Notes under the pieces: generated by a model
What the model saw: only the letters and a program-made list of their open reading frames with translations
Database searches by the model: none
Told to the model about the DNA's origin: nothing
Shown: piece after piece, positions 525 to 5,352 of the stretch
How the letters are laid out: each line of letters starts with the position of its first letter
Numbering within the stretch: position 1 is the first letter of the stretch
Assembly: GCA_021791245.1 (NCBI GenBank)
Contig: JAJYWY010000015.1
Coordinates: forward strand, 1 to 39,144
DNA: 39,144 bases
Direction: 5' to 3'
DNA from: Microcaldota archaeon
Lineage (GTDB): Archaea; Micrarchaeota; Micrarchaeia; Micrarchaeales; CABMGC01
Made by a program: the position numbers and the translations under genes

Positions 525-540
525 CAGGATGCCCAAACTT

Positions 541-548
541 TTATAAAT
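541..548 (+). promoter_or_regulatory. Archaeal TATA-like box TTATAAAT
   Basis: About 26 nt upstream of the ATG at 570, suggesting a leaderless transcript. Confidence 0.5.
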
Positions 549-569
549 ATGATTGGTTATTCATATATT

Positions 570-1082
570 ATGTATGGCAGCGGCAAAACAATAAACGCTA
601 TTCGCATTGTGTTCAATTCCAAGGCATACTATATGGTATTTCTAGTGTTTGCAGCTCTGACCTTCCTTGGTTATTCTTATCTGTTTTCCGGCTCTTCATT
701 AAATCTTGCCATGCCAAAAATAGCTTTTGGACTAAATGCCTATTCATTAATCATATCCATATCGATTAGCATACTCCTAGCTCTCTCATTGGTGATGAAC
801 CTATTCGCGTTTGTGAATGGGGCTGCAATGAATGGAAAATCTGGTTTAGGCGCTGTTATAGCATCAATAATACCGAATAGTCTTTGCTGTACATCTTTGG
901 TGCCGGCCATCTTGGCTGCCTTTGGCGCTCCCACTGCGACAATAATAGGGGTAGCAGGTGAACTCCAGGGCCCATTCGCTACTTACGAAACCCTGTTCAT
1001 CGTTCTCTCGATAGGCCTTCTCTTGCTAAGCATTTTATTGGTTTCAAGAAACATCGCAAAATGTTGCACGGTGAAGAAATGA
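570..1082 (+). CDS. Multi-TM membrane protein with CC pair within a TM segment and CC near the C-terminus; MerT-like candidate
   Basis: ORF 549-1082; start at 570 preferred from TATA spacing. Motif …SLCCTSLVPAILAAFGAP… and C-terminal AKCCTVKK. Confidence 0.75.
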   Translation: MYGSGKTINAIRIVFNSKAYYMVFLVFAALTFLGYSYLFSGSSLNLAMPKIAFGLNAYSLIISISISILLALSLVMNLFAFVNGAAMNGKSGLGAVIASIIPNSLCCTSLVPAILAAFGAPTATIIGVAGELQGPFATYETLFIVLSIGLLLLSILLVSRNIAKCCTVKK

Positions 1083-1642
1083 AAAAGAGTAAGATAGCAA
1101 TAATTGGAATTGGATCCCTGATTGCCATTCTTGCTATAACTTTATTGTTTATGAAATATGGCTCGAATGGCAGTAATACGGCGCCGCAGAACATTACTGT
1201 TGGGTCGATAGCTCCGGACTATAGCTTCCTTCTAAGCAACGGTTCGTATGCGAATTTGTCCGCATACAAAGGGCATGCTGTAGTCCTTTGGTTTGTAGCC
1301 ACTTGGTGCTCATCATGTGCCCAAGGCAATGAGGTGATAAGCCAGAACTACCAGTTTTTCAAACGGCGCGGGATTAAGGTTATTGAACTGGAGCTTTACA
1401 ATGATTTGGGATACAGCGGACCACCTATAACAAGCTTTGTGAATTCATATGCCCCAAGTGCATACTCCAACGGCACAATAATCCCGGCACTTGCAAATTA
1501 TAATATGACTGCAGCCTATGACCCAAAAGGCTATCTGGACATATATTACCTTCTCTCTGGAAACAGCACTGTTTTGTATATAAACGGCTCTCCATCATCT
1601 ACTCTTGGCCAGTTAGAGGAAGCAATAAACAGCACTTTATAG
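1079..1642 (+). CDS. Membrane-anchored TlpA/thioredoxin-like protein
   Basis: N-terminal TM anchor; WFVATWCSSC redox motif; ATGA 4-nt overlap with the upstream gene. Confidence 0.85.
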   Translation: MKKSKIAIIGIGSLIAILAITLLFMKYGSNGSNTAPQNITVGSIAPDYSFLLSNGSYANLSAYKGHAVVLWFVATWCSSCAQGNEVISQNYQFFKRRGIKVIELELYNDLGYSGPPITSFVNSYAPSAYSNGTIIPALANYNMTAAYDPKGYLDIYYLLSGNSTVLYINGSPSSTLGQLEEAINSTL

Positions 1643-1651
1643 CGTGATTGA

Positions 1652-1984
1652 ATGGACAAACTTGAATTCAAGACTTTCTTTTATGCAATAGGCGATTACA
1701 GCAGGTTCAGCATATTGAAATCCCTGGCAAAGAAAGATTTGAATGTAGGCAGAATCTCTGCCATAACTGGAATTGAACAAAGTAATGTATCTCACCACAT
1801 GCAATGCCTTTTGAATTGCGGATTTGTGAATGTAAGGAAAAAAGGCAAGGAGCGCATTTATGCGATCAACCCAGAAATGAGGCAAACAATAAACAGCATC
1901 ATAAGGCACATAGCAATTTACAAAAAACGGATAATATCATGTGATATAGCAAACAGGGAATATATTTCAAAGGTGATTAAATAG
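1652..1984 (+). CDS. ArsR-family winged-helix regulator
   Basis: FYAIGDYSRFSILKSLAKKDLNVGRISAITGIEQSNVSHHMQCL helix-turn-helix pattern; cysteines C-terminal to it. Confidence 0.85.
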   Translation: MDKLEFKTFFYAIGDYSRFSILKSLAKKDLNVGRISAITGIEQSNVSHHMQCLLNCGFVNVRKKGKERIYAINPEMRQTINSIIRHIAIYKKRIISCDIANREYISKVIK

Positions 1985-3396
1985 AAGAATTTGAGTATGC
2001 AATACTCGGTCAAGGGTCCGCTGCCTTCTCGGCAGCAATAAAAGCAAACAGCATTGGGATTAAAACTGCAATGGTAGGCAGGGGTGCAACTAAGGGTGCG
2101 GTGCTTGGCGGCACTTGCATAAACGTCGGATGTGTGCCAAGCAAGAGGCTAATAACAGTAAGCACGTTTATTGAAGAGCTTAGGAAAAAGAGATATTCCG
2201 GACTGGATTACACTGTTGGAAAGCCGGACTATGCGAAGATAGTCAAAGAGAAAGACAGAATTGTAAATGACCTTAGGGCTGAGAAATACAAGGATGTATT
2301 GGAAAGTATGGAAAATGTCACGTTCGTAGATGAAACTGGGACGTTCATAGATGCAAACACAATCAAGGCAGGGGCTAAAGAGATAAGGGCAAAGCACATA
2401 CTAATAGCAACAGGCGCAAAGGCTGCAATACCGCAGATAAAAGGCATAGAAAAAGCAAAATATCTCACGAACGAAGAAGCGCTGTCTATGGATTATCTTC
2501 CTGAGTCGCTAATAGTTGTCGGCGGCAGGGCGCTAGGGCTTGAATTTGCCCAGCTATTTGCCAGATTTGGAGTGAAGGTTACCCTGCTGCAGAGGAGCGA
2601 CAGGATAATACCTAACTGGGAACCGGAAATGAGCAGCTATCTTACAAAATACCTGAAGGAGAGCGGAGTTGAGATAGTGACAAATGCTGCCTTGTCCAAG
2701 ATAAGCTATAGAAACGGGGCAAAGAGCATAACTGCAATGGTTAATGGGAAAGAAGCAGTTTTTGATGCCGAAGAAATACTTTTTGCCACTGGAAGAACTG
2801 CCAATACTGAGAAGCTAAATCTTGAGGCATCCGGAGTTCAACTAAACGAGAGAAATTTCATAAAAGTCGATAAGTCGTTAAAGACAACATCTGAGAACAT
2901 ATATGCTGCAGGAGACGTTACCGGTGAGCCTATGCTTGAGACGCTGGCTGCAAAGGAAGGCAATACAGCTACTTCTAACATCTTCGAAAATGCAAACAAA
3001 ACGATAAACACGAATGAGATACCAAGCGCGATATTTACCTATCCTGAAGCTGCAATGGTAGGCATGACAGAAGAGCAGGTAATAAAAAACAGGATAAAAT
3101 GCAGCTGCGGCCCTGTAGAGTTCAAGTTTGTGGCAAAGGCCGCAATAATCGGAGATACTAGAGGCATAGTTAAGATAGTGATAGATAGCAAAACCAAGAA
3201 GATACTGGGCGTGCACATTCTGGCTCCGCATGCTGCGGATCTTATACATGAAGGTGTGTTGGCGGTGAAATTCGGGTTAACGATAGACGATATAATAGAT
3301 ACCGTGCACGTCTTTCCAACGCTCAGCGAAGGGTTTAAGCTGGCTGCGCAGGCATTCTACGAGGATATCTCAAAGCTTAGTTGCTGTACTGTATAG
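1981..3396 (+). CDS. merA: Mercuric reductase
   Basis: Pyridine nucleotide-disulfide oxidoreductase with GGTCINVGCVPSK, C-terminal LSCCTV* (vicinal Cys pair) and N-terminal FAD motif AILGQGSAAFSAAI, readable only if translation starts upstream of 2071, apparently at ATA 1981. Confidence 0.85.
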   Translation: MEEFEYAILGQGSAAFSAAIKANSIGIKTAMVGRGATKGAVLGGTCINVGCVPSKRLITVSTFIEELRKKRYSGLDYTVGKPDYAKIVKEKDRIVNDLRAEKYKDVLESMENVTFVDETGTFIDANTIKAGAKEIRAKHILIATGAKAAIPQIKGIEKAKYLTNEEALSMDYLPESLIVVGGRALGLEFAQLFARFGVKVTLLQRSDRIIPNWEPEMSSYLTKYLKESGVEIVTNAALSKISYRNGAKSITAMVNGKEAVFDAEEILFATGRTANTEKLNLEASGVQLNERNFIKVDKSLKTTSENIYAAGDVTGEPMLETLAAKEGNTATSNIFENANKTINTNEIPSAIFTYPEAAMVGMTEEQVIKNRIKCSCGPVEFKFVAKAAIIGDTRGIVKIVIDSKTKKILGVHILAPHAADLIHEGVLAVKFGLTIDDIIDTVHVFPTLSEGFKLAAQAFYEDISKLSCCTV

Positions 3397-3636: not shown

Positions 3637-4560
3637 TCATGAAGTTGCACATGATGAAGGTGTTACGCCACTAGGATATACAGAGCTTCCTGCAGTCCAC
3701 GTGCCGAACCCGCTGCTGCTCACAGATGCATAATAAGGATATGCACCATTACTGCTTATACAATATATATAACCATTGTAAATTCCACATGTACCAGTAG
3801 CTCCTAATCCAACAGGATACGTAGCACTTCCTGCAGTCCACGTCCCGAAACCGCTGCTGCCCACAGACGCATAGTATGGATATTGCCCGATGGAGTTACT
3901 ATCTATGCAATATATATATCCATTGTAAGTTCCACAATAATGAGGTCGTATAAATCCACCAGGATATACAGAGCTCCCTGCAGTCCACGTCCCGAAACCG
4001 CTGCTGCCTACAGACGCATAATAAGGATATGCTCCTGAGTTGTCTATACAATATATATAACCATTGTAAGTTGCACATGTCACAGGATTTCCTACCCCTG
4101 TAAGATACACTGCACTTCCTGCAGTCCACGTTCCGAAACCGCTGCTGCCTACAGACGCATAATATGGATAATTGTTTTTGCTAGTTTCACAATATATATA
4201 ACCATTGTAAGTCGCACATGTACCAGCATTAACAAGCGTACCAGGAAACACCGCACTTCCTGCAGTCCACGTTCCGAAACCGCTACTGCCTACAGACGCA
4301 TAATAAGGATAAAGTCCACTTTGTTGGTTTACACAATATATATATCCATTATAAGTTGCACATGAAGGACCTGCAGGTCCACTTCCAGGAAACACTGCAC
4401 TTCCTGCAGTCCACGTCCCGAAACCGCTGCTGCTCACTGATGCATAATAGGGATATTGGTTGGGGGTATCTACGCAGTATATAAAACTGTTTATAGTCGT
4501 TGTTGAAGAGGTACTTGTAGATGTAGAGGTTGAAGTGGATGTAGATGTAGTCGTTGTAAG
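3637..4560 (-). pseudogene. C-terminal part of surface protein: S/T-rich linker plus six ~40-aa beta-propeller-like repeats (GSSGFGTWTAGSxxYPG…CATYNGYIYC)
   Basis: In frame with 4561-5352, separated from it only by TGA at 4563-4561; no further stop before 3637. Confidence 0.6.
3660..4440. repeat. Six tandem DNA repeats encoding propeller blades
   Basis: Recurrent cttcctgcagtccacgt.ccgaa.ccgct.ctgc…. Confidence 0.85.
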
Positions 4561-5352
4561 TCATACTGTGATTGAATTGCTTGCGCTTCCAAAGGTTGCC
4601 TGCACAAGCACATTAGATGACTGCGACTTGCTTACTACCATATATGAAGTTACGTTGCCGAATGTATCTGTAGTACCTGATGAAGGCGTAATCACAATCG
4701 AAGGCACGTTTGCAGAAAGTTGTATCGTTGCCCCCGGCACAGATGTGCCGAAGAGCTTGACGGTGCTTGTTATTTTTATCACTTTGCTGCTGTTTATTAT
4801 AGGCAATTGGGTTTCCGTTACACTTATTGCAATCTGCTCATTTGTAGAAAGGGTTGTCGAGTGCGCAGAGAACGTTCCGGAATATATCTCCCTTGGCTGG
4901 GAGTTGCACGTGATGGCATTGCCATTCGGGCATAGGCTGCTCTTCACATACAGCTTACCTGCAATGTTTGTTCCATCTGGAAGTGCATTGGGAAGAGTGG
5001 CATTGCATATTATCGCACCGCCAGGTAGCGCATAATTTGTAAAGCATTGTCCGGTTACGTTCTTTCCGCTTACGTTTGCTATCAGGCTCGGGTCTGCTAC
5101 AGGATAGTTCTGCATGTTTGACATATAAAGTGCCAAGAGCGAATTTGAAGTGCCTGGAGGAGTGCCTATTAAGAAGTCATTGCAGTAAATGCCGTAATTG
5201 AAAACGCATGTATTTGCAACAGATTGTGTAGAGGTATAATAAAAATATATTATTCCTATTACAATCGCTATTATAATAAATGCAAAGCCTATCGTGGTAA
5301 TATATTCGAGACCTGCTTGTGCCGTAGTACGAGTAATTCCCATATTTCCCAT
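4561..5352 (-). CDS. Type IV pilin-like-anchored surface protein with Ig-like/invasin-type domain
   Basis: N-terminus …TTAQAGLEYITTIGFAFIIIAIVIGIIYFYY; C-terminal IQLSANVPSIVITPSSGTTDTFGNVTSYMV. Confidence 0.7.
   Translation of the reverse strand: MGNMGITRTTAQAGLEYITTIGFAFIIIAIVIGIIYFYYTSTQSVANTCVFNYGIYCNDFLIGTPPGTSNSLLALYMSNMQNYPVADPSLIANVSGKNVTGQCFTNYALPGGAIICNATLPNALPDGTNIAGKLYVKSSLCPNGNAITCNSQPREIYSGTFSAHSTTLSTNEQIAISVTETQLPIINSSKVIKITSTVKLFGTSVPGATIQLSANVPSIVITPSSGTTDTFGNVTSYMVVSKSQSSNVLVQATFGSASNSITV

Follow-up and report, generated by a model that had tools for sequence, protein, structure and literature searches.

Gene organization of the locus

The stretch of DNA analyzed in this study, hereafter the window, comprises 39,144 nucleotides and represents contig 13 of a host assembly of 839 kb in 42 contigs that is 92.5% complete. 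The closest named relatives of the host are Candidatus Micrarchaeota MAGs, and others have been deposited as Marsarchaeota, Parvarchaeota, or Nanoarchaeota. Four genes on the same strand occupy positions 570-3396 in the order MemT, Trx, ArsR, and MerA (Table 1); MemT is the label that we use for the 170-aa membrane protein encoded by the first gene. An earlier reading of the letters alone (the sequence-only reading) had described the genes as overlapping or almost touching, which the coordinates bear out: MemT and Trx overlap at ATGA, a gap of 9 nt separates Trx from ArsR, and MerA begins within the last 4 nt of ArsR. The coordinates and motifs given in the same reading proved correct, but it had listed ArsR first in the cluster; the regulator gene is actually the third.

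Two further open reading frames were noted on the minus strand. The first (3637-4437), adjacent to the operon, contains repeats of the type SSGFGTWTAGSAVFPG...YNGYIYC and encodes a probable surface repeat protein, and the second (4561-5352) encodes a protein with a pilin/archaellin-like hydrophobic N-terminus (TTAQAGLEYITTIGFAFIIIAIVIGIIYF).

Table 1. Genes and predicted signals of the operon
Feature	Positions	Strand	Remarks
TATA box TTTATAAATA	540-549	+	about 21-30 nt 5' of the MemT ATG
Palindromic operator ATATGATTGGTTATTCATAT	547-566	+	between the TATA box and the MemT ATG; putative binding site of ArsR
MemT	570-1082	+	170-aa MerT-like membrane protein; ATG 570, stop 1082
Trx	1079-1642	+	TlpA/ResA-like thioredoxin; 187 aa from ATG 1079
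ArsR/SmtB regulator	1652-1984	+	three invariant cysteines, C52, C56, and C97
Shine-Dalgarno AGGTGAT	1971-1977	+	within the 3' end of arsR; predicted for merA
AUAG	1981-1984	+	predicted merA AUA start overlapping the arsR UAG stop; aligned with ATG in L010/L073 and L019/L082
MerA	1981-3396	+	471 aa; C46/C51, Y103, F445, C468/C469

MerA carries the diagnostic residues of mercuric reductases

The MerA protein scored 551.7 bits against the NCBIfam equivalog TIGR02053 (cut-off, 454.45) and carries the motifs GGTCINVGCVPSK and LSCCTV, by which it had already been named from the sequence alone. The published criteria for MerA are C207/C212, Y264, F or Y605, and the vicinal pair C628/C629 (PMC8261052). 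All six diagnostic residues were present in 65 of 65 aligned MerA proteins, and their positions in the window protein are given in Table 1. Position 605 was F in the archaeal and Y in the bacterial members of this alignment, in agreement with PMC8261052. The nearest solved chains were mercuric reductases, and a domain search detected no N-terminal HMA domain in the window MerA. Judged by these residues and motifs, the window MerA is an authentic mercuric reductase, and the earlier view of the locus as a mer-like operon holds, since its MerA agrees with every published sequence test.

MemT is related to MerT

The window MemT matched no family in Pfam, NCBIfam, or PHROGs. As had been remarked from the sequence, it contains one cysteine pair in a transmembrane helix and another near the C-terminus, which we located at CC106-107 (DNA 885-890) and CC165-166 (DNA 1062-1067), respectively. 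Among 34 diverse MemT members, the helix-borne CC was invariant, Tyr35 and Pro112 were nearly so, and the C-terminal Cys was present in over 90%. Positive charges and simple hydropathy suggest a cytoplasmic location for the N-terminus, for the middle loop, and for the C-terminal CC. The AlphaFold model of MemT was of moderate confidence (pLDDT 72.9). Comparison with the PDB, by sequence and by fold (Foldseek), returned nothing usable, and no relatives were found in viral contigs.

The sequence-only reading had likened MemT to MerT and proposed comparing it with the MerT, MerC, and MerF families. Profile alignment with hhalign revealed a match between MemT and MerT with a probability of 92.1% and a score of 45.5, in which the last two MemT helices lay on MerT helices 1-2 and CC lay on CC. 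This score was well above those of 400 column-shuffled controls, half of which kept hydropathy (maximum, 20.8). The window MemT did not match the Pfam MerT family (PF02411), for which the best of the MemT members examined singly scored 22.3 bits against a gathering cut-off of 32.9, and a few members weakly touched the MerT models of Pfam (5.4e-5) and NCBIfam (MerTP, 4.9e-6). Classical MerT has three helices, its second Cys pair lying in the loop that leads into helix 3, whereas MemT has two extra N-terminal helices preceding the CC helix, carries its second pair at the C-terminus, and lacks a helix after it. MerT proper was rejected as the identity of MemT on account of this layout and the score below the PF02411 cut-off. 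Because the MerT core is shared but the helix layout differs, MemT is regarded as a relative rather than a member of MerT; on profile evidence, its C-terminal Cys-bearing hairpin is a remote MerT homolog.

MerF, a two-helix transporter, resembles MemT in its CCxTP helix start and, in some members, in a CC in the C-terminal tail, but is half the length, and its profile match reached 57% over 30 columns. MerC and MerH were rejected as the family of MemT. The MerC profile, built from two sequences only, gave a probability of 0.6%, and the single MerH sequence used gave 0.5%. MerH of Mycobacterium marinum pMM23 is similar in its length of about 171 aa, the four helices that it is said to have, its CC, and the ArsR of its mer cluster, but it resembles MerC-domain proteins.

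The thioredoxin may act as a mercury carrier

The best start of Trx is ATG 1079, preceded by the Shine-Dalgarno sequence GGTGA. The protein matched AhpC-TSA and Redoxin (34.6 and 30.9 bits, both above the cut-offs), contains WCSSC, and has a single N-terminal hydrophobic helix predicted to serve as an anchor, with the redoxin domain outside; its earlier description as a membrane-anchored TlpA-like thioredoxin was therefore confirmed. The CxxC motif was invariant among 65 homologs. Trx shares with the ResA/TlpA oxidoreductases the form of an anchored extracytoplasmic redoxin with WCxxC, but is distinguished by its own conserved block (E.Y.DLG..G and LD.YY) and by its fixed partnership with MemT. 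In one branch of Micrarchaeota (L051:3643-4374 and its relatives L050, L052, L054, L055, and L057), the anchor helix of Trx has a CC of its own after an N-terminal C2H2-like finger, and some members read CCxxP, like the MerT helix.

It is plausible, as the sequence-only reading suggested, that the TlpA-like protein stands in for the periplasmic carrier or provides reductant. That reading had seen no classical MerP or MerC. Likewise, we detected no HMA/MerP match in the operon or the assembly (approximately 92% complete), with search controls positive in 13 of 14 genomes, and no MerC match in either, for which the search controls were weak. A DsbD/CcdA-type electron donor (DsbD_TM) was also not detected in the same assembly, with controls positive in 10 of 14 genomes. 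Because the genome has neither a detectable HMA/MerP nor a detectable DsbD-type donor, the evidence leans towards Trx being an Hg(II) carrier in the place of MerP rather than a reductase.

Alternatively, Trx may be a reductase. With MemT as the sole carrier of Hg(II), Trx would maintain the cysteines of MemT, or others outside the cytoplasm, in the reduced state, or would free damaged thiols of Hg. Members of the TlpA/ResA family are thiol reductases, the Cys pairs of MemT would oxidize in acid, aerobic habitats, and MemT occurs without Trx in a Shewanella/Pseudomonas transposon that has MerT, MerP, and MerC, all of which speak for such a role. We nevertheless consider it somewhat unlikely: with no transmembrane donor detected, the source of electrons is not apparent, and almost all DPANN, Eremiobacterota, acidophile, and Halorussus sets whose flanks could be read include Trx.

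ArsR and the predicted operator

The presence of an ArsR regulator, as previously proposed, was confirmed by a match to the HTH_metalloreg family (71.6 bits; cut-off, 55), and the cut-off of the CmtR equivalog was not reached. The residues C52, C56, and C97 were kept in 58 of 58 homologs, bacteria included. ArsR resembles CmtR in having a CxxxC in the recognition region and a C-terminal Cys at the same distance, the metal ligands of CmtR being C57, C61, and C102. The two proteins differ in that ArsR lies in a mer operon, and their local identity was 36% over 61 aa.

In nearly all of 29 aligned upstream regions, a TATA box, the palindrome ATATGAnTGnnCAnTCATAT, and the ATG were found within 33 nt. 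The operator pattern, for which 0.08 matches are expected by chance in the window, was found at this site alone, and no other site in the 839-kb genome fitted the scanned pattern perfectly. The distance from the TATA box to the ATG implies that the transcript would be leaderless. The natural reading of these features is that ArsR is a thiolate metal sensor acting as a repressor, which would bind the palindrome and respond to Hg.

The merA gene is predicted to start at AUA

The MerA open reading frame was called from ATG 2071, yet the conserved MerA sequence extends upstream to AUA 1981, and a stop codon stands in this frame immediately 5' of the AUA. The ATG falls 30 codons inside the conserved FAD-binding sequence. 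We compared the 28 relatives that share the MemT-Trx-ArsR-MerA gene order, the window counted among them. In 23 of these, an AUA occupies the same position, and none of the codons ATG, GTG, and TTG is found there or farther 5'; of the remaining five, two carry ATG in place of the AUA, and the other three offer an in-frame ATG or GTG at a more 5' site. The merA Shine-Dalgarno sequence, mostly GGTGAT, is conserved and well spaced within arsR. We infer from this pattern that merA is initiated at AUA 1981.

Across 251 kb of the host genome, ATG was the codon enriched behind Shine-Dalgarno sites. AUA as a general start codon of the host was rejected, as no other convincing AUA start was found behind a good Shine-Dalgarno sequence in these 251 kb. 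AUA is a very weak start codon in tested bacteria. The translation of MerA would be coupled to that of arsR through AUAG, presumably at low efficiency.

The weakness of AUA, the 4-nt overlap of the two frames, and the want of a canonical merA start would also fit two other routes to MerA, namely a -1 ribosomal frameshift out of the arsR frame or initiation at ATG 2071. Both routes appear very improbable. A frameshift from arsR is unlikely because the last arsR codon varies (AAA, GAA, AGA, or GCA); moreover, one relative stops a codon earlier, and no slippery site is conserved. A start at 2071 would cost the enzyme its FAD-binding motif, whose conservation is at the protein level, and against both routes stand the two relatives with ATG exactly where the AUA sits and the conservation of a Shine-Dalgarno sequence at the proper spacing. 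With initiation at AUA 1981, gene callers restricted to ATG, GTG, and TTG will truncate this MerA.

MemT co-occurs with MerA

The sequence-only reading had called for a search of MerA neighborhoods across archaea. Among 301 genomes of the phylum, MemT was detected in 65 and MerA above the cut-off in 54; 51 genomes had both, 14 had MemT without MerA, 3 had MerA without MemT, and 233 had neither (Fisher p = 7e-41). In each of the 3 genomes with MerA alone, the contig breaks off beside MerA or just past Trx, at the place where MemT would be expected. Several of the MemT-only genomes are at contig ends and four are weak matches; the loci L040, L045, L056, and L062 are true exceptions, having MemT-Trx without MerA nearby. 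Because a few genomes hold the pair without MerA nearby, MemT-Trx may have another use.

The top 30 loci keep MemT-Trx-ArsR-MerA as far as the contig permits. In the more distant loci, MemT and Trx are still adjacent although the genes occur in eight or more orders; ArsR-MerA-MemT-Trx is one of these, and another has MerA divergent from ArsR-Trx-MemT. The distances in the four protein trees were correlated (Mantel r 0.72-0.96, p = 0.001). The gene set is conserved across dozens of genomes far beyond chance. Rather than belonging to a known unrelated family with no link to MerA, as might have been found, MemT falls in no curated family and co-occurs with MerA near-perfectly. A second FAD-dependent disulfide reductase-like gene was observed close by in L040 and L048.

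Occurrence beyond the phylum

A scan of species genomes identified the set in Parvarchaeota, Rehaiarchaeum, and bacteria of the Eremiobacterota, where complete MerA copies end in SCC. On plasmids of Acidithiobacillus ferrooxidans YQ-N3 and of two Acidiphilium multivorum strains, merA-redoxin-MemT follows a MerR-family gene. A plasmid of Halorussus vallis carries the arrangement merB-merA / arsR / redoxin-DUF3105 / MemT, with ars genes near the cluster. When an acidophile MemT was used as the sole query, matches of approximately 30% identity were found in Glaciecola, Shewanella ANA-3, and P. aeruginosa pIP40a, in mer transposons adjoining merRTPCA. These gammaproteobacterial MemT proteins lack the C-terminal Cys and a Trx partner. 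Seven of the seven plasmid loci inspected, those of approximately 30% identity included, lie in mer clusters, and none of the plasmid MemT proteins is named in its record.

Two proteins encoded at these loci are of note. In Halorussus, a protein adjoining MemT in the merA/merB plasmid cluster (L131:4536-5987) combines C2H2 fingers, a twin-arginine-like signal, a redoxin domain, and DUF3105. In L133 and L172 (4456-4851 in both), an uncharacterized 131-aa membrane protein (CGRMHCFFSGPFFLG) is encoded between a second MerR and MemT, in the mer transposon of large conjugative plasmids.

These distributions bear on the possibility that MemT-Trx is a general module for thiophilic metals or thiol stress (Hg, Cd, Pb, and As) that MerA has joined and that may export or buffer metal instead of importing Hg(II). 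The pairs without MerA in a few genomes, the ars genes near the Halorussus cluster, and the Cys spacing that ArsR shares with the Cd/Pb sensor CmtR are all in its favor. We regard it as unlikely, given that the association with MerA is near-perfect across genomes and domains, that every plasmid locus inspected is a mer locus, and that the homology of MemT is to an importer, MerT.

Comparison with known mer systems

The operon shares several features with classical merTPA of the Tn501/Tn21 type, namely a C-terminal CC in MerA, a membrane protein with a helix CC and a cytoplasmic-side Cys, an extracytoplasmic CxxC protein, and a metal-responsive regulator. It differs in having a redoxin for the HMA-fold MerP, ArsR for MerR, and a MerA without the NmerA domain. 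Like the mer clusters of Sulfolobus and other archaea, it combines a MerA bearing F605 with ArsR-type regulation. In published archaeal mer operons, merA stands on its own or is joined by arsR and a TRASH protein (PMC3466566), whereas a transporter-like pair is present here. Boyd and Barkay reported that, with the exception of one merP in Ferroplasma, no archaeal taxon has any of the known proteins for the transport and binding of mercury, and that ArsR is negatively correlated with transport genes (PMC3466566). Christakis et al. identified MerA in 22 Micrarchaeota and 10 Parvarchaeota genomes (PMC8261052); no description of such merA neighbors was found there when the text was searched for thioredoxin, ArsR, and Micrarchaeota. 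A search of the open-access literature on mer with redoxin or TlpA also found no prior description. We class the system as a mer operon variant that is new with respect to the open-access literature searched.

Proposed mechanism and significance

Taken as a whole, positions 570-3396 probably constitute a mercury-resistance operon with a MerT-like/Trx import module. The anchored Trx would use its CxxC to bind Hg(II) on the outside, the task of MerP in classical operons, and would hand it to the buried CC of MemT, a putative importer of Hg(II). MemT would then move the ion to the CC at its own cytoplasmic C-terminus, from which it would reach the C-terminal CC of MerA, and MerA would reduce Hg(II) to Hg(0) in the cytoplasm. 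The entry of Hg(II) or a comparable thiophilic metal would free ArsR, through its three-Cys site, from the palindrome that it would otherwise occupy. A more specific proposal is that archaeal mer import rests on a thioredoxin-fold Hg(II) carrier that replaces MerP and on a previously unrecognized four-helix MerT-like family, spread with merA among DPANN archaea, haloarchaea, Eremiobacterota, and acidophile plasmids, one clade having a conserved AUA merA start. We advance this proposal tentatively, giving it a little under an even chance.

The findings indicate that a MerT-related protein with a fixed Trx partner, annotated as hypothetical, accompanies MerA not only in dozens of archaeal genomes but also in bacteria and on plasmids of acidophiles that can be cultured. 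The predicted AUA start of merA in 23 related species would be a rare natural case of a fixed noncanonical initiation codon. Acidiphilium, Acidithiobacillus, and Halorussus are laboratory organisms that carry the MemT system. MemT-Trx supplies a testable mechanism by which mercury may reach MerA without MerP and enlarges the mer gene set to be sought in environmental surveys.
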